Assembly: GCA_016928865.1 (NCBI GenBank)
Contig: JAFGJX010000086.1
Coordinates: 1-64,000 of the forward strand
DNA: 64,000 bases
Source of the DNA: Spirochaetota bacterium
Lineage (GTDB): Bacteria > Spirochaetota > UBA4802 > UBA5550
Direction: 5' to 3'
Under the pieces are notes generated by a model. It worked only from the letters and a program-made list of their open reading frames with translations, had not been told where the DNA came from and did no database searches. The translations under genes were made by a program, and so were the position numbers. Of the stretch, positions 48,739-56,228 are shown in pieces. Numbering within the stretch: position 1 is the first letter of the stretch; the number at the start of each line of letters is the position of its first letter.

Positions 48739-50286
48739 ATGAAACGGGCCATTTTCATGATCATGCTGCTTGCTCTTTGCGGTTCCTGCGGATCCCGTGA
48801 ATCCTCTGCAACGATCAAGAGATCCAACCTCGCGGGGCAATGGTATTCAGCTGACCGGACTGAGCTTTCCCGGTCCATCGACCGGCTGCTGGCCAGGCCG
48901 GCCGCCGTGTTCCAGCGGCGTGATCCCCTGATACTGGTTCTTCCGCATGCGGGGTATGCGTATTCCGGGGGCATTGCAGCGGCAGGCTATCGGGCGCTCG
49001 GAACCGTGGGGAAGCCCGCGGTCACCACGGACCTTGTCGTCATTCTCGGCCCTTCTCATTACAGCGCGTTTTCCGGGTGCGCGCTGATTGACGCGGATTA
49101 TTATGAAACGCCGCTGGGCAGGGTGCGGCTCGAAAGGGGCGTGGCGGAGCGTCTCGGAAAGAATGCGCTTTTCAGACATAATCCTTCCATGTACGAGCGG
49201 GAGCATTCCATCGAGATCCATCTTCCCTTCCTCCAGAGGATTTTCGGCAGCGCGATCGAGCGTGATATCAGCGTTCTTCCCGTGCTCGTGGGTGAGCTTG
49301 ATGACAGAGAGGCGGCGCGCGCTGCCGGAGCCATTGCAGCCGCCGTCGCGGGGAAACATCCGCTTTTTATCATAAGCAGCGATTTCACCCATTACGGGCC
49401 CCGGTTTGGATACATGCCGTTTAAAAATGAAACTGCGTCGGGTACCGCGCAAAAATTAAAAAAGGTCGACAGGGACGCAATTGAATTTATTCTGAAAAGG
49501 GACATCGCCGGTTTTTCCTCATACGTGGAGCGTACCGGCATCACCATCTGCGGCAGGAACCCGATCAAGATCGCGATGGCCCTTCCCATAGAAGGCCCCG
49601 GGGCTGAAATAATCGCGTATGACACGTCGGGCGCTATCACGGGCGATTACGAAAACTCGGTCAGTTACGCGTCCATTATTTTTTACGGCAGGCTGGCCGG
49701 CTCCGCGGGAGCGGCCGCCCCGGATACGTTCGCGCTTGCGGAACAAGACAGGCTCTTTCTGCTCAGGGCGGCCAGGGACAATATACGATCATGGCTCGAA
49801 AAGAAAAGGGGGATCAGGTTTTTTCCCACGGACGTGCCGAAGACCTGCCTTGAGAAGAGGGGCGTCTTTGTGACGCTGAAAAAAAAGGGCGCGCTCCGGG
49901 GCTGCATCGGCTATATCGTGGGCACCATGCCCCTGATACAGGGTGTGCTGGACGCCTCCTACAACGCGGCCTTCAGGGACCCGCGCTTCGGGCCGCTCGG
50001 CAGGGACGAACTGAAGGAGATCGCCATTGAAATCTCCGTGCTCACCGCGCCCGTGCCGGTGCGCTCCGTAAAGGAGATACAGACGGGCAGGGACGGTTTA
50101 ATCGTCGAGCGGGGCCGGTACCGCGGTCTCCTGCTTCCCCAAGTGGCGGTGGAGCAGGGGTGGGGACCCGAGCGTTTCCTGGACGAGACGTGCCTCAAGG
50201 CAGGCCTTCCCGCGGGCGCGTGGAAAGACGGGATAACCACGGTATCCAGGTTCCAGGCGATTGTGTTCGGAGAGGAGGCGAAGTGA
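48739..50286 (+). CDS. AmmeMemoRadiSam proteins B and A fused (MEMO-AMMECR1), lipoprotein-like
   Basis: 515 residues, GGGGG before ATG 48739. MKRAIFMIMLLALCGSC is a lipoprotein-like signal (cysteine at 17; the -3 residue is Cys, so not canonical). Residues about 30-310 form the MEMO fold: AGQWYSADRTELSRSIDRLL, LPHAGYAYSGGIAAAGYRAL, LGPSHYSAF and EHSIEIHLPFLQ with metal-ligand histidines. Residues about 335-515 form the AMMECR1 fold: RGVFVTLKKKGALRGCIGYI. The A and B proteins normally occur as separate genes beside the radical SAM enzyme; here they are fused and probably exported. It overlaps the next gene by GTGA. Confidence 0.92.
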   Translation: MKRAIFMIMLLALCGSCGSRESSATIKRSNLAGQWYSADRTELSRSIDRLLARPAAVFQRRDPLILVLPHAGYAYSGGIAAAGYRALGTVGKPAVTTDLVVILGPSHYSAFSGCALIDADYYETPLGRVRLERGVAERLGKNALFRHNPSMYEREHSIEIHLPFLQRIFGSAIERDISVLPVLVGELDDREAARAAGAIAAAVAGKHPLFIISSDFTHYGPRFGYMPFKNETASGTAQKLKKVDRDAIEFILKRDIAGFSSYVERTGITICGRNPIKIAMALPIEGPGAEIIAYDTSGAITGDYENSVSYASIIFYGRLAGSAGAAAPDTFALAEQDRLFLLRAARDNIRSWLEKKRGIRFFPTDVPKTCLEKRGVFVTLKKKGALRGCIGYIVGTMPLIQGVLDASYNAAFRDPRFGPLGRDELKEIAIEISVLTAPVPVRSVKEIQTGRDGLIVERGRYRGLLLPQVAVEQGWGPERFLDETCLKAGLPAGAWKDGITTVSRFQAIVFGEEAK

Positions 50287-51431
50287 CGGACAGAGAAATC
50301 AGATCGATGCAGAGAAGGGAGTTTCTCCGGAAAACCGGGCAGGGGCTGTGCCTGTTTGCGCTGGGCGAGCTCGGGCTTATGGGCTGCTCGGATACCTACT
50401 GCCAGTCGGGGAAAAACTACTACACCAGGCCGGCGAAAATGTGGAAGAGGCTTGAAGGCGGCGATGTCCTGTGCCAGCTCTGTCCCAACGGGTGTCGACT
50501 CGGAAACGGGGACCGGGGCGTCTGCAGGGTGCGGCAGAATATCAAGGGGGAGCTCCACACCCTGGTCTACTCGCGGATCGCGGCGGCGCACGTGGACCCG
50601 GTGGAGAAAAAGCCTATGTTCCACTTTCTGCCCGGCGAGACCGCGTATTCTATCGCGACGGCCGGATGCAACCTTTCCTGCCAGTTCTGCCAGAACTGGC
50701 AGCTGTCTCAGGCCGCTCCGGAGGACCTTGACGCGACCAGAATCACCCCGGATGATCTGTCGAGGCGCGCCCGTTCTGCGGGATCGAAAGTGATCGCTTT
50801 TACCTACAACGAGCCGACCGTGCAGTACGAGTACATCCTCGACGCGGCGGCGTCGGCGCGCCGGCATGGAATCAGGCCGATCATCATCTCGAACGGCTAC
50901 ATCATGCCGCTGGCGGGGCGGACGCTTGCGAAGAGCCTGGATGGCGTCAAGATCGACCTCAAGGCCTTCACCAACCGGTTCTATTCGTCGATCTGCGGCG
51001 GCAGGCTCAAGCCGGTCCTCGAGAACCTGGTCGCGGTGCACGCGACCGGCACATGGCTTGAGATCGTGGTCCTGGTGATCCCCACCCTCAATGACGATCC
51101 GGCGGAGATACGGAAGATGGCCGCCTGGGTCCGGAAGAACCTGTCGGCGGACGTGCCCATGCACTTCACGAGGTTTCACGCGATGTACCGGATTCGAAAC
51201 CTGCCGCCCACGCCCGTATCGACTCTGGAGCGGTGCCGGACGATCGCGAAAGAGGAGGGGATTCGCTACCCCTATATCGGGAACGTGAGCGGCCATCGGT
51301 GGGAGAACACCTTTTGTCACAACTGCAACAGGATGATCATAGAGCGGAGCGGTTATTTCAATGTAAGGAATCATGTCAGGGGCGGGGCGTGCCCCTTCTG
51401 CGGCGCGAGGATACCGGGGGTGTGGGTGTGA
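50283..51431 (+). CDS. AmmeMemoRadiSam radical SAM enzyme with Tat/lipoprotein signal
   Basis: 382 residues, start GTG 50283 with GGAGG upstream, overlapping the preceding stop (GTGA); ATG 50307 is an alternative. The N-terminus QRREFLRKTGQGLCLFALGE is a twin-arginine signal followed by lipobox LMGC (C35). C129, C133 and C136 form the CxxxCxxC site for the [4Fe-4S]/SAM cluster (AGCNLSCQFCQNW). FTYNEPTVQYEY and NGYIM are typical of the PflA-like AmmeMemoRadiSam branch, and a C-terminal set CHNC...CPFC may bind zinc or a cluster. The reaction is unknown. Export of a SAM enzyme is unexpected, because SAM and electrons are cytoplasmic. Confidence 0.92.
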   Translation: MTDREIRSMQRREFLRKTGQGLCLFALGELGLMGCSDTYCQSGKNYYTRPAKMWKRLEGGDVLCQLCPNGCRLGNGDRGVCRVRQNIKGELHTLVYSRIAAAHVDPVEKKPMFHFLPGETAYSIATAGCNLSCQFCQNWQLSQAAPEDLDATRITPDDLSRRARSAGSKVIAFTYNEPTVQYEYILDAAASARRHGIRPIIISNGYIMPLAGRTLAKSLDGVKIDLKAFTNRFYSSICGGRLKPVLENLVAVHATGTWLEIVVLVIPTLNDDPAEIRKMAAWVRKNLSADVPMHFTRFHAMYRIRNLPPTPVSTLERCRTIAKEEGIRYPYIGNVSGHRWENTFCHNCNRMIIERSGYFNVRNHVRGGACPFCGARIPGVWV

Positions 51432-53623
51432 AAAACCCGGGCCGCGCCGGAATCGCGGCAATCGCCTTCTTCACCGGGCTTGAAGCCGCCATCGTCCAGG
51501 TGGTGCTCATCCGTGAGCTCCTGACGGTCTGCCGGGGCAACGAGCTTATCATCGGCATCATCTTTTCTTCCTGGTTCTTCGGGATTTTCCTGGGCGCCCG
51601 CCTCAACCCGGCAGGCGGAATCGGGTCGCTCAAGCGCCGCGCGCTCGTATCCATGGCGCTGCTGCCCTGCCTGATGGCTGCGGCGGTGTACGGAGCGCAC
51701 GCGCTGCAGGCGATCGTCCCGCGGGTGGCAGGTACGTTTTATTCATTTTCAGCCGAAGCGGTCATCGCGCTGGTATGCGCGGCTCCCGCGGGCTTTTTCG
51801 TCGGTTTTTTTTTCCCCCCGCTGGTGGCGCTTGCTTCGATGGAGATGGGACGTCGGTCAGCGGGTTTCGTCTACTATCTCGAGTCGCTCGGCTCGTTCGC
51901 GGGCGGGATCGCCTTTTCCTTTCTTCTCGTTGAGGCGGCGAACCCGCTCGAGTTGGCCTCGGGGCTTCTCTGCGGGGCACTGGTCATCATCGGGTGCCTG
52001 ACCGACAGGAGGCTGCTTCCTCTCGTTCTCGTTCCCCTGACCTGCGTTTTTTTTTCCGGCCGGATCGAAACCCGGGTGTTTTCCGCGGTCTGGGACCGCA
52101 CGCACGCGGGAACGCTTGAGAGCTATCGGCGTACCAGGTACCAGGCCGTTGCAGTGGAATCGGCCGGCGACACCGTGAGCGTGTACGGCAACGGCGTTCT
52201 TGTCCACACCCTGCCGGACCGTTACGAATCACGCGGTATCGTACACCTGATAAATGCGCTGCGCGGGAACAGAAAGACCCTTCTCCTCATAGGATCGGGC
52301 CCCGGGGCGCTGCTCAACAATATGCTGCGCGCAGATATAGAGCGCCTGACCTATATCGAACAGGACCCGGGCCTCTGGGAGGAGATCTCCCCGTGGATGA
52401 AAAGGTTTTATCCCGGGGCGGACACCTCGAAGCTTTCGCTGCAACGGGAAGACCCGCGGCATTTTCTCACAAGAACCGCCGGGCGTTTTGACATGATCAT
52501 CAGCATGCCGCCGGCGCCTGAAAACATCATGCTGAACCGTTTTTATACGAGAGAGTTTTACGCCCTGTGCAAAAAGCGCCTGGACCGCAGGGGCGTCTTC
52601 ATAACATCGCTCCACGGCTTCAGCAACTACCTGTCGCCCGAGCTGAGGGACTTCATCGCTTCGGTCTACCGGGCCTTCGCGGGCGAGTTCAGCTTCCGCC
52701 TGGTCACGTCCGGCGAAACCATGTACCTGATCGGGGCCGCGGAAGAAGGCGTTCTCCCCGCCAGCGGCGAAGAGCTTATCGCGCGCTACAATGCGATCGA
52801 TGCCCACCCTCTTCCATTCGATCAGGAGATAGTAAGGAATTTTTCTCCCCGGGAGCTGAGATGCTTTTTTGAAAAGACCCAGATCGGGTATTTCAAGGAG
52901 GCCATGGCCCGCGCCGGCGGGGACGAAAACCGGGACATGAGGCCGGGCGCGTACTGGAAAAACATAGTGCTGTCGGCGTTCCGCGAGCGGTCAGTGCTCT
53001 ATGATATAATCCGCGGCTTTCTGGTCCTGCCCGTGCTCGTTCTCCTTGCCGCGGCAGCGGCTATCGGCGATATCGGACGGAGGTACGGGGGGCGGCGTAT
53101 GGCCGCGGGCGCGGTCATCTGCGCCACCGGCATGGCGAGCATGTCGGCGATGATGATAATGATCATCCTGTATCAGAACGCCCACGGTATCGTATACCAC
53201 CGGATATCGCTCATCAATGCGATTTTCATGCTGGGGCTCACCGCGGGGAGCTTCTTCTCGTCGCGCGGCAGGACGCCGCGGCCGGCTCTGATTGTGGGGG
53301 GTGCGGCGGTGTCCGTTGCCAGCATGCTCGTCCTGACTCTGCCCGGGACCGGATTCCTGTTCTGGCCCCTGCTCGCGGTTTTTTCGTTTCTGTGCGGCGC
53401 GCTTTTTCCCTCGCTGTTTGCCGCGATCGGGCGCGATCGCTACCAGGAATCCGCGTCCGTGCTTGACGCCATGGACCATTTTGGCTCAATAACTGGCTCT
53501 CTGCTCACGGTGATGCTTTTCCTGCCTGTGCTGGGAATACAGGGGGCGCTTGCCGCTGTCTCCGTGATTCTCATTCCCGCGGCCGTAATCGCGTGGAAGG
53601 TCATCGGATCGGATGCCGGGTGA
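51428..53623 (+). CDS. Membrane-embedded spermidine-synthase-like protein
   Basis: 731 residues, start GTG 51428 overlapping the radical SAM stop (GTGA). An N-terminal membrane domain of about seven helices (AAIAFFTGLEAAIVQVVLIR, then PAGFFVGFFFPPLVALASME) is followed by a soluble spermidine-synthase-like Rossmann domain (about 235-460): TLLLIGSGPGALLNNML, IEQDP and a DMIISMPPAPEN region. A second membrane domain (from LYDIIRGFLVLPVLVLLAAA) closes it. Such fused proteins are widespread and unassigned; SAM or decarboxylated SAM binding is likely by fold only. Coupling with the radical SAM gene suggests both act in one pathway. Confidence 0.87.
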   Translation: MKNPGRAGIAAIAFFTGLEAAIVQVVLIRELLTVCRGNELIIGIIFSSWFFGIFLGARLNPAGGIGSLKRRALVSMALLPCLMAAAVYGAHALQAIVPRVAGTFYSFSAEAVIALVCAAPAGFFVGFFFPPLVALASMEMGRRSAGFVYYLESLGSFAGGIAFSFLLVEAANPLELASGLLCGALVIIGCLTDRRLLPLVLVPLTCVFFSGRIETRVFSAVWDRTHAGTLESYRRTRYQAVAVESAGDTVSVYGNGVLVHTLPDRYESRGIVHLINALRGNRKTLLLIGSGPGALLNNMLRADIERLTYIEQDPGLWEEISPWMKRFYPGADTSKLSLQREDPRHFLTRTAGRFDMIISMPPAPENIMLNRFYTREFYALCKKRLDRRGVFITSLHGFSNYLSPELRDFIASVYRAFAGEFSFRLVTSGETMYLIGAAEEGVLPASGEELIARYNAIDAHPLPFDQEIVRNFSPRELRCFFEKTQIGYFKEAMARAGGDENRDMRPGAYWKNIVLSAFRERSVLYDIIRGFLVLPVLVLLAAAAAIGDIGRRYGGRRMAAGAVICATGMASMSAMMIMIILYQNAHGIVYHRISLINAIFMLGLTAGSFFSSRGRTPRPALIVGGAAVSVASMLVLTLPGTGFLFWPLLAVFSFLCGALFPSLFAAIGRDRYQESASVLDAMDHFGSITGSLLTVMLFLPVLGIQGALAAVSVILIPAAVIAWKVIGSDAG

Positions 53624-53627
53624 TCAG

Positions 53628-54128
53628 TTATCTCGAGTTGCCGCTGTAGCGGGCTATGGCCCGCTCGATATCCTGTCTTCGGTATCCAATGTATGCCCTG
53701 TCGCCCATGATAAAGAGCGGTATGGGGATGTCCTTCTTTACCGTCGTGGCGGCAGATATTTTAACCAGATAGTAAGGGGTGCCATTGACCAGGGCAAAGG
53801 CGTGCGGCCTGCCGGATTCGTAAATGAAAGGCCGGCCTTCCAGGCGTGCGTTTATATTGCGAAGAAGTGCAATCATGATGCCCCTGTTGCGGAGATTGGC
53901 GGCATCGACCCGACCTCGGGCGTTCAGCACCTCGTAGTTTGCAAGAGTGATCTGGGGATAGCGTTGCAGTATGAACGGAAGGTCTTTTTCCGCGTGCTTG
54001 CAGTGCGGGCAGAGCGGGCTTGTGAAAAAGTGAATTTTCAGGCGTTTTCCCGCTTCTCCTGCCTGTGCCGAATGCAGCAGCAGGGCCGCCACGGTCAGCG
54101 AAAATAAGATCGCGCGCAGATGCTTCAT
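53628..54128 (-). CDS. Periplasmic thioredoxin-fold protein (CPHC)
   Basis: 166 residues with a signal peptide ending near AQAGEA. The N-terminal thioredoxin fold holds C40-P-H-C43 (FFTSPLCPHCKHAEKDL), the dithiol of DsbA/glutaredoxin-like proteins, and VKKDIPIPLFIMGDRAYIGY contains the cis-Pro. The protein lacks DsbA's long helical insert, so a reductase or glutaredoxin-like role is as likely as oxidation. It is convergent with the AmmeMemoRadiSam operon, stopping 5 bases from it. Confidence 0.83.
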   Translation of the reverse strand: MKHLRAILFSLTVAALLLHSAQAGEAGKRLKIHFFTSPLCPHCKHAEKDLPFILQRYPQITLANYEVLNARGRVDAANLRNRGIMIALLRNINARLEGRPFIYESGRPHAFALVNGTPYYLVKISAATTVKKDIPIPLFIMGDRAYIGYRRQDIERAIARYSGNSR

Positions 54129-54428: not shown

Positions 54429-56228
54429 ATGATTGTCAAAATGTCAAAGTTTCGTGCAATAATAATCCTGCTGGTTGGTGTCACCCTGATGGCTGATCAT
54501 GGCATCAATTCGGCAGCCGGAAAAAAAGGTGTGTCGCGTCATCGGAACGTAAAACCACATCGTATAAACAGAAAGAAGGAGGCCCCCCGGCTTCCGGATC
54601 CGGCCCTTGAATGGGGTGACTGCGGGGGGAATGGTATTGCCGGTATCTTCAATAATAATATCATTTCAACCAGGATCGCTCCGGTCAAAGGTGACATTGC
54701 CGATGTCGCGGTCCGCGGGGAAAAACTCTATGTGCTGGTGAAAAATTTCAACCTGGTCTCAGATGCGATATTCACCATCAGGAAGCAGAGCGGCAGGATA
54801 GAGGCGATATGGGGGATAGGGCGTCTCGGCGCGGAAGCCATTGCCTGCGACGATCGATTTATATGGATACTGAGCAGATCGGACCGATATTTTATCCGCA
54901 AGCTTACGATGGCGGGGAAATCAGCCGGCGCTATCGGCGTTTCGTCATTGCCGGAGGGATCATTCAGGGGGCTGTCCGTCTCGGGCGGCGTCCTGTCCTT
55001 CGCCGTCAGACGCGAGAACGGATCAGGATTATTTATCTTCGATCCCAAGACCCGCGGCCTGAAAGAGATCGGATCGTACCGGGGCACGATCGGCGGCGTC
55101 GCTTCACACCAGGGGTTCGTGCTCGCCTACCTGAACGAGTTTGACGCCTATTCAGACCACTGGCTGCTTGCCTTCGACAATTCCGGCGAATTAAAAAAAA
55201 AGATGCGCTTCGTGGACGCGGTTCCGGACGCCCTGACCGGAGACGGAAAGGATCTCTACTGCATGATAAAGGGGAAAAACGGCGCGACAGTATTTCCCGT
55301 TGCGCTGCTCATGGACAGGAGCCTCGTGCTGGCGGCCCCGACCGTAAGGTCGATCACCATGACCATTCCGGTCACCGGCAGCTATTCGATCCCCTACAGC
55401 GTGGACCTCTGGGTGCCGTATCCGATTCACCGCAGGTTCCAGAATGTCAGGCGGGTCTCACTCGATCCGAAACCGGCTGAGATCACCGATGATCGCTTTG
55501 GAAATCGCTGGGCGAGGGTCAGGTTTGAACGTGTAACCGGAAGCGTTCGGGCCATTCTGACATTTGACGTTATTACTGCCGCGGCGGCCTGCACCCTCGA
55601 TCAGGGTGCCGATTTCAACACGGACGACCTGACGCCGGAGTCGGCATTCCTGGGAGAGACGAGCGCTTTCGATATCTCGCACTTTATTATAAAGTCTCAT
55701 TCCACGCGTATCGACAGGAACGGCTCGTGTCTGTCGCGCGTCCTGGCGATCCGGGATTACGTTAATGAGACGATACGCTTTACCGCCTACTGCGATCGGT
55801 GGATGAAGGCGAGCGATTACCTTTTCAGGGGCAGGGGGGACGCGTACGGGCAGACGCTCGGATTTGCGGCGTTATCACGCTTCATGGGCATTCCGGCGCG
55901 CGCCGCCGGCGGCCTGATAATAGACGCGAGCACTGAAGAGGGAGTGCGGGAGCCGCTCGCCACCTGGAACCAGGTATACATGCCGGGCTCCGGCTGGGTG
56001 GACATCGGCATCGGAAGGGACTACGGCGAGGCACGGGACGTTGTCGCGGGAAAGCCGGCCGAATATTGCGTTATGTTCGAGGGAGACTTTGATTGCAGTG
56101 ATTACCGGACCGCGTTCGCAGAAGTCGGATGGACCCTGGCATACCGGCTGATCTGTTCGGAAGACAATCACGGTGCGGACATCAGTGTGGGAACCGTACG
56201 GGTGGCGGCGAAGGCTCTGGAGAAATAA
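54429..56228 (+). CDS. Transglutaminase-fold protein, catalytic Cys/His lost
   Basis: 599 residues with an N-terminal signal or anchor (KFRAIIILLVGVTLMADHGI). Residues about 60-330 read as beta-propeller- or beta-sandwich-like (VRGEKLYVLVKNFNLVSDAI). Residues about 440-560 match the transglutaminase-like core: IRDYVNETIRFTAY, then GDAYGQTLGFAALSRFMGIP with ARAAGGL, and TWNQVYMPGSGWVDIGIG. In active enzymes the first segment has Cys and the second starts HAW; here they read AYG and ATW, so the catalytic Cys and His are absent while the Asp-region is kept. A binding or structural role is likely. M5 at 54441 is an alternative start. Confidence 0.72.
   Translation: MIVKMSKFRAIIILLVGVTLMADHGINSAAGKKGVSRHRNVKPHRINRKKEAPRLPDPALEWGDCGGNGIAGIFNNNIISTRIAPVKGDIADVAVRGEKLYVLVKNFNLVSDAIFTIRKQSGRIEAIWGIGRLGAEAIACDDRFIWILSRSDRYFIRKLTMAGKSAGAIGVSSLPEGSFRGLSVSGGVLSFAVRRENGSGLFIFDPKTRGLKEIGSYRGTIGGVASHQGFVLAYLNEFDAYSDHWLLAFDNSGELKKKMRFVDAVPDALTGDGKDLYCMIKGKNGATVFPVALLMDRSLVLAAPTVRSITMTIPVTGSYSIPYSVDLWVPYPIHRRFQNVRRVSLDPKPAEITDDRFGNRWARVRFERVTGSVRAILTFDVITAAAACTLDQGADFNTDDLTPESAFLGETSAFDISHFIIKSHSTRIDRNGSCLSRVLAIRDYVNETIRFTAYCDRWMKASDYLFRGRGDAYGQTLGFAALSRFMGIPARAAGGLIIDASTEEGVREPLATWNQVYMPGSGWVDIGIGRDYGEARDVVAGKPAEYCVMFEGDFDCSDYRTAFAEVGWTLAYRLICSEDNHGADISVGTVRVAAKALEK

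Follow-up and report, generated by a model that had tools for sequence, protein, structure and literature searches.

A likely extracytoplasmic AmmeMemoRadiSam system encoded by a Spirochaetota operon

Can a radical SAM reaction take place outside the cytoplasm? This question is raised by an operon of three genes located in the window, i.e. the whole stretch of 64,000 nucleotides that was analysed. The operon encodes a MEMO–AMMECR1 fusion, a radical SAM enzyme and a protein of 14 transmembrane (TM) segments containing a domain with the spermidine synthase (SpdSyn) fold (Table 1). Radical SAM enzymes have been treated as strictly cytoplasmic, as they require SAM, Fe–S clusters and low-potential electrons. 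We propose that this operon likely encodes an extracytoplasmic AmmeMemoRadiSam system (probability of about 0.75). This proposal is supported by computation, that is by the export signals, the signal-bearing clade, the retained catalytic residues, the gene linkage and the predicted topology; export, SAM supply and the electron route are inferred, and localization has not been measured.

Table 1. Coordinates of the operon features in the window and of related loci in the same genome.
Feature	Position	Strand	Basis
MEMO–AMMECR1 fusion, 515 aa, N-terminal lipoprotein/Sec signal	48739..50286	+	TIGR04336, TIGR04335, Pfam Memo and AMMECR1
Fusion signal peptide MKRAIFMIMLLALCGSC	48739..48789	+	Signal and terminal Cys kept in relatives
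Candidate lipidated Cys17 of the fusion	48787-48789	+	End of signal peptide
MEMO domain, LigB-like metal site (PHAGY, GPSH, SSDFTH, TICGR)	48826..49677	+	Domain match, ligands conserved
AMMECR1 domain, LRGCIG motif	49765..50268	+	Domain match
AmmeMemoRadiSam radical SAM enzyme, 382 aa	50283..51431	+	TIGR04337, 373.6 bits; AlphaFold model
Tat motif RREFLRK	50313..50333	+	Conserved in relatives
Lipobox LMGC (Cys codon 50385-50387)	50376..50387	+	Several same-genus/same-order relatives have xx[SG]C here
CX3CX2C radical SAM cluster motif (C129, C133, C136)	50667..50690	+	Invariant in both clades
Protein of 14 TM segments (MFS/SpdSyn-like) with an inserted domain of spermidine-synthase fold	51428..53623	+	GTG start, overlaps stop of radical SAM gene
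SpdSyn-fold domain between TM7 and TM8	52067..53020	+	Foldseek to spermidine synthases; predicted outside
Signal-less radical SAM enzyme (L002)	G000:C8:27311-28282		Second set
Separate MEMO and AMMECR1 genes (L004)	G000:C98:135255-136772		Follow a coaB/C-like gene
FKBP-like lipoprotein, DUF362 protein with RK Tat-like leader and polyferredoxin, in a row	G000:C2:27624 (L200 409-3587)

The operon and its export signals

The product of the first gene matches TIGR04336 (MEMO, system protein B) with 219 bits for a cut-off of 26 and TIGR04335 (AMMECR1, system protein A) with 178.3 bits for a cut-off of 99, PF01875 and PF01871 being also above their cut-offs. In its lipobox, LCGSC, Cys17 is preceded by C-G-S, which departs at position -3 from the canonical [LVI][ASTVI][GAS]C pattern. 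Nearly all relatives at the genus and order level have a cysteine at the end of the hydrophobic stretch of the leader. Human MEMO1 has been shown to bind iron or copper through H49, H81 and C244 (PMC11081632). Of the aligned fused sequences, some of which are near-duplicates, 88-90 of 91 retain the equivalent residues as well as H131, D189 and H192 close by; the same holds for 39-40 of 40 stand-alone sequences.

The second gene encodes a radical SAM enzyme well identified by TIGR04337 (373.6 bits versus a curated cut-off of 220). The automatic ORF start, GTG 50160, proved to be wrong and falls inside the overlapping upstream gene. GTG 50283, preceded by GGAGAGGAGG and forming a GTGA overlap with the stop codon of the fusion, is the likely start, with ATG 50307 as an alternative; RREFLRK and LMGC are retained from both. 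The leader meets the pattern of a Tat substrate, with an RR motif, a moderately hydrophobic h-region and a c-region lipobox, translocation itself being inferred. Shuffling of the first 60 residues produced the combination of Tat motif, hydrophobic stretch and lipobox in 9 of 100,000 draws, and shuffling of the whole protein in 9 of 20,000. The same genome codes for TatC (196 bits, G000:C86). Throughout this study, export signals were assigned by motif, hydrophobicity and conservation.

The initial annotation had described the fusion and the radical SAM genes, a lipoprotein-like signal on the former and an RR motif with the lipobox LMGC on the latter. The coordinates held for both genes, as did the signal of the fusion, though its lipobox is non-canonical at -3, and the RR motif and lipobox of the enzyme, whose signal is conserved in all relatives carrying the fusion. 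A later start codon removing the RR motif, which would have refuted this annotation, was checked for, and every plausible start keeps RR. The third gene and a second, signal-less set present in the same genome (see below) were absent from it.

The AlphaFold model of the radical SAM enzyme (pLDDT 88.7, residues 15-43 disordered) has a core closest to that of pyruvate formate-lyase activase (3cb8, TM-score of 0.81 over the target). The CX3CX2C motif is invariant in the signal-bearing and signal-less clades alike, and the N-terminal (C14, C17, C21, C31) and C-terminal (C295, C298, C320, C323; domain numbering) cysteine residues are 98-100% conserved in both. The cluster cysteines and the remaining residues shared across the family show the same degree of conservation as they do in signal-less enzymes, so SAM-cluster chemistry is under selection in the exported enzyme.

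Two further genes lie near the operon. An exported thioredoxin/DsbA-like protein with a CPHC motif is encoded convergently (53628-54128, - strand), and a transglutaminase-domain protein with a leader peptide is found at 54429-56228 (+ strand). Homologues of the latter occur downstream of the cassette in three genomes of the same genus (L058, L061, L062).

Distribution of the signals and phylogeny of the enzyme

Within the phylum, 186 of 393 genomes contain a TIGR04337 match above cut-off, from which about 100 loci were taken, best scores first and thus not as a random sample. Wherever the radical SAM enzyme is adjacent to a fused MEMO–AMMECR1 protein, it has an R[RK]xxL motif and a hydrophobic stretch (17/17 loci, 10 with RR and 7 with RK). 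A signal is present on the fusion at every one of the 17 fused loci with a readable start, and an MFS/SpdSyn gene is the neighbour of the exported pair at 16 of these loci. Only five radical SAM enzymes without a fused neighbour carry Tat-like leaders (L046, L049, L051, L073, L074), two of them also with the SpdSyn gene. RK in place of RR was observed in the leaders of relatives at the order or genus level, namely L039, L040, L042, L043, L044, L047 and L064.

The genome of the window (3.8 Mb, 131 contigs, 90% complete) contains a second complete AmmeMemoRadiSam set devoid of signals and split over two places (Table 1). Judged from sequence alone, this set serves as an internal control for the signals of the exported one.

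Across phyla, a scan using an alignment of Tat-type radical SAM enzymes as query returned 80 loci; it is biased to exported forms, and most of the genomes are MAGs. Most of these enzymes have Tat leaders and some have Sec or TM leaders, including orthologues with cleavable-looking Sec leaders (L136, L139, L189). Carriers of the exported type include MAGs of Acidobacteriota and Caldithrix and one Thermoanaerobaculum aquaticum MAG. Nearly all the neighbouring fused MEMO–AMMECR1 proteins have signals, several of those scored as 'none' by script having one on inspection. To counter the bias of the scan, 50 of the scanned genomes were searched for all MEMO and all radical SAM copies. Signals were found on 41 of 45 fused copies (39 by script, L240 and L267 by eye) and on 2 of 31 stand-alone MEMO copies (Fisher p = 1.9e-14), while the extra radical SAM copies of these genomes are almost all signal-less. 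Signal-bearing and signal-less forms are paralogues coexisting in the same genomes.

A phylogenetic tree of 222 radical SAM sequences, built with the signal region left out, contains a single branch (SH-aLRT 97) which has on one side all 102 signal-bearing enzymes and only four signal-less ones. The signal label agrees with this branch in 214 of 218 labelled rows and requires 3 changes, versus 72.6 in shuffles. Enzymes on the exported side come from bacteria and archaea and represent 22 or more named phyla, Aenigmatarchaeota among them. Judged from these sequences, the divide reflects an ancient split rather than scattered gain; the tree is unrooted and the direction of change is undetermined. 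The four enzymes of the exported clade in which no leader is evident (L025, L029, L050, L196) could reflect losses or misread starts. At L104 and L112, in the signal-less clade, the frame that encodes the radical SAM domain also encodes a multi-TM segment upstream of it, which may indicate a membrane-protein fusion.

The membrane protein and candidate electron carriers

The third gene is translationally coupled to the radical SAM gene through a second GTGA overlap. In its product, a 318-residue domain separates two groups of seven hydrophobic segments (14 in all), and the AlphaFold model (pLDDT 85.9, pTM 0.89) has helices at the predicted places. The domain matches spermidine synthases 1uir and 3o4f (Foldseek, TM-score of 0.67-0.68 over the target). 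In 32 of 32 homologues, the loops expected to lie inside are the ones rich in lysine and arginine, following the positive-inside rule (20 versus 4 in the window protein). Loop charges alone do not decide the topology, as dropping both TM7 and TM8 leaves the parity of the other loops unchanged. These two segments, which flank the SpdSyn domain, are hydrophobic in 31/32 (TM7) and 30/32 (TM8) homologues. Because of the positive-inside charges, the hydrophobic TM7 and TM8 and the helices of the model, the SpdSyn domain is predicted to face the outside, which we consider likely. The hydrophobicity of TM7 and TM8 in nearly all homologues led us to reject a simple 6+6-TM MFS topology, in which the SpdSyn loop would be cytoplasmic.

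By curated family score, the protein is not a spermidine synthase: with 45.1 bits against TIGR00417 (speE) for a cut-off of 249.55, this identity was rejected. Its catalytic Asp region is altered, MPPAP being found where spermidine synthases have VDSTDP (STDP motif). It is also below the cut-off of the fused MFS/spermidine synthase family NF037959 (24.8 bits versus 40). With scores so far under the spermidine synthase cut-offs, the ligand of the domain cannot be assigned from family scores, and SAM is only a possible candidate, put forward as a hypothesis.

Gene linkage distinguishes the exported from the signal-less loci. Within 1.5 kb of the radical SAM gene, a SpdSyn gene was found at 31 of 74 exported loci, a DUF362 gene at 19 of 74 and a polyferredoxin gene at 7 of 74, versus 0 of 54 signal-less loci in each case; these tests were not corrected for shared ancestry. 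The recurrent neighbours are DUF362 proteins with Tat leaders and a Sec/Tat polyferredoxin of NapH-like type, in which an RR motif occurs internally. For a polyferredoxin of like architecture, it has been shown with reporter fusions that the C-terminal part is Tat-translocated (Keller et al., 2017; PMC5449189). In the genome of the window, there are nine DUF362 matches, one of which is in an operon with such a polyferredoxin (Table 1). This pair lies elsewhere in the genome, and neither gene type is linked to the window operon.

Seven radical SAM homologues (L170, L171, L173, L179, L180, L181, L187) carry, between a Tat-type leader and the core, a CXXCH motif and a downstream histidine, which are absent from the window enzyme. 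The covalent attachment of heme c normally takes place outside the cytoplasm. This module might be a built-in heme c electron donor, a possibility inferred only from the sequences, covalent heme not having been shown.

Proposed mechanism, rival explanations and known systems

In the mechanism we propose, the radical SAM enzyme would fold and receive its Fe–S cluster(s) in the cytoplasm before export by Tat. As a lipoprotein, it would be held on the outer side of the inner membrane, beside the MEMO–AMMECR1 fusion, which would be exported by Sec and lipid-anchored. On this outer side, the 14-TM carrier would most likely pass on or recycle SAM, or a nucleoside derived from it, through its outside SpdSyn-fold domain. 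The electrons needed to cleave SAM would come from exported carriers, that is in many phyla from the neighbouring Tat-DUF362 and Sec/Tat polyferredoxin proteins, in some homologues from the fused heme-c-like CXXCH module and, in the genome of the window, from the unlinked DUF362–polyferredoxin pair. The PFL-activase-like enzyme would then make a radical on an envelope substrate, either a protein backbone or a small molecule, and MEMO, with its Fe/Cu site, and AMMECR1 would be its partners. A protein backbone as target is a speculation, possible in view of the PFL-activase-like fold. No precedent for an exported radical SAM enzyme or for Fe–S/SAM chemistry outside the cytoplasm was found in the open-access literature searched, which did not cover subscription papers and preprints, and a free extracytoplasmic SAM pool is not known to exist.

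The initial annotation had reasoned that, if both proteins are exported, a SAM-radical reaction would have to happen outside the cytoplasm, unless the signals are retained as membrane tethers, and had suggested surveying the fused signal-bearing version across genomes. This survey was run and revealed signals across a clade spanning more than 20 phyla. With export still inferred, an outside reaction is supported by the clade-wide signals, the paralogues, the CXXCH motifs and the outward-facing partners; tethering by retained signals is less likely and is not excluded. In a bolder reading, which extends the proposal, many bacteria and some archaea would have a complete extracytoplasmic radical SAM pathway, with SAM delivered across the membrane by the 14-TM carrier, electrons provided by exported polyferredoxin/DUF362 or fused heme c, and MEMO–AMMECR1 as lipid-anchored partners. 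The odds for and against this extension, which would be a first for SAM-radical chemistry outside the cytoplasm, appear to be balanced.

The most serious rival holds that the enzymes are exported without SAM being supplied outside: the folded radical SAM enzyme would carry its cluster and a bound SAM regenerated at each turnover, and the SpdSyn protein would handle another substrate such as a polyamine or a nucleoside. Export of proteins already carrying their cofactors is known for Tat, the canonical catalytic Asp region is missing from the SpdSyn domain, which scores under curated cut-offs, and the SpdSyn gene is close by at fewer than half of the exported loci (31/74). However, the orthologues with plain Sec leaders (L136, L139, L189) cannot be exported folded and pre-loaded, and SpdSyn linkage is nil at signal-less loci (0/54), so that we lean against this explanation. 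Alternatively, the signals could be uncleaved anchors keeping the enzymes on the cytoplasmic face of the membrane. This would dispense with SAM and low-potential electrons outside, and would suit the RK motifs in part of the phylum as poor Tat signals. Tat often accepts RK poorly, and RK instead of RR in 7 of 17 in-phylum fused relatives does count against the extracytoplasmic reading, weakening the Tat interpretation for those species. Nevertheless, the lipoboxes and AxA sites, the positive charges of the N-flanks, the cleavable Sec leaders of some orthologues, the CXXCH motifs of homologues, the fact that nearly all fused partners bear lipoprotein or Sec signals and the SpdSyn domain predicted to face outward make this cytoplasmic-face explanation unlikely.

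It might also be argued that the exported protein performs no radical chemistry and is an Fe–S or zinc protein involved, with MEMO, in metal or electron handling. MEMO binds Fe or Cu (PMC11081632), and Tat commonly transports redox and metal proteins; this explanation is nonetheless improbable given that the cluster cysteines and family-wide residues are conserved as in the signal-less clade. Finally, the signals could have arisen by chance or from a wrong start codon, as the automatic start was indeed wrong. Since both realistic starts keep RR, shuffles give the pattern in only about 0.01-0.05% of draws, and conservation of the signals extends to more than 20 phyla, this possibility can be virtually ruled out.

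If the extracytoplasmic reading is true, an ancient exported radical SAM clade with every catalytic cysteine retained and with redox and membrane linkage would change the cytoplasm-only picture of these enzymes. It would imply that SAM is present outside the cytoplasm and provide a handle on a widespread system with the human homologues MEMO1 and AMMECR1.

Several known systems can be compared with the present one. The closest solved fold to the radical SAM model is the pyruvate formate-lyase activating enzyme (3cb8), from which it differs by having no glycyl-radical enzyme nearby, by its extra N- and C-terminal cysteine quartets and by its export signal. The third protein shares TM segments and a spermidine-synthase fold with the fused MFS/spermidine synthase NF037959 and the membrane polyamine aminopropyltransferase PRK03612. 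In contrast to these, it is below both cut-offs, its domain interrupts a series of 14 TM segments after TM7 and is predicted to lie outside, and the canonical Asp motif is lost. The linked polyferredoxins have a NapH-like TM part, an internal RR motif and a Cys-rich C-terminal part in common with the dual Sec/Tat NapH–NapG fusion (PMC5449189), whereas in the window genome the polyferredoxin is unlinked (G000:C2) and its role as electron donor is inferred. The AmmeMemoRadiSam system itself (TIGR04335, TIGR04336, TIGR04337) is already known, its reaction being still unidentified, and the window set belongs to it, with all three components above curated cut-offs and the same catalytic residues. 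What is new is the exported variant, which, unlike the typical system, bears export signals on all parts, has fused MEMO–AMMECR1, forms a separate and ancient radical SAM clade, and is linked to a membrane SpdSyn protein, DUF362 and polyferredoxin.
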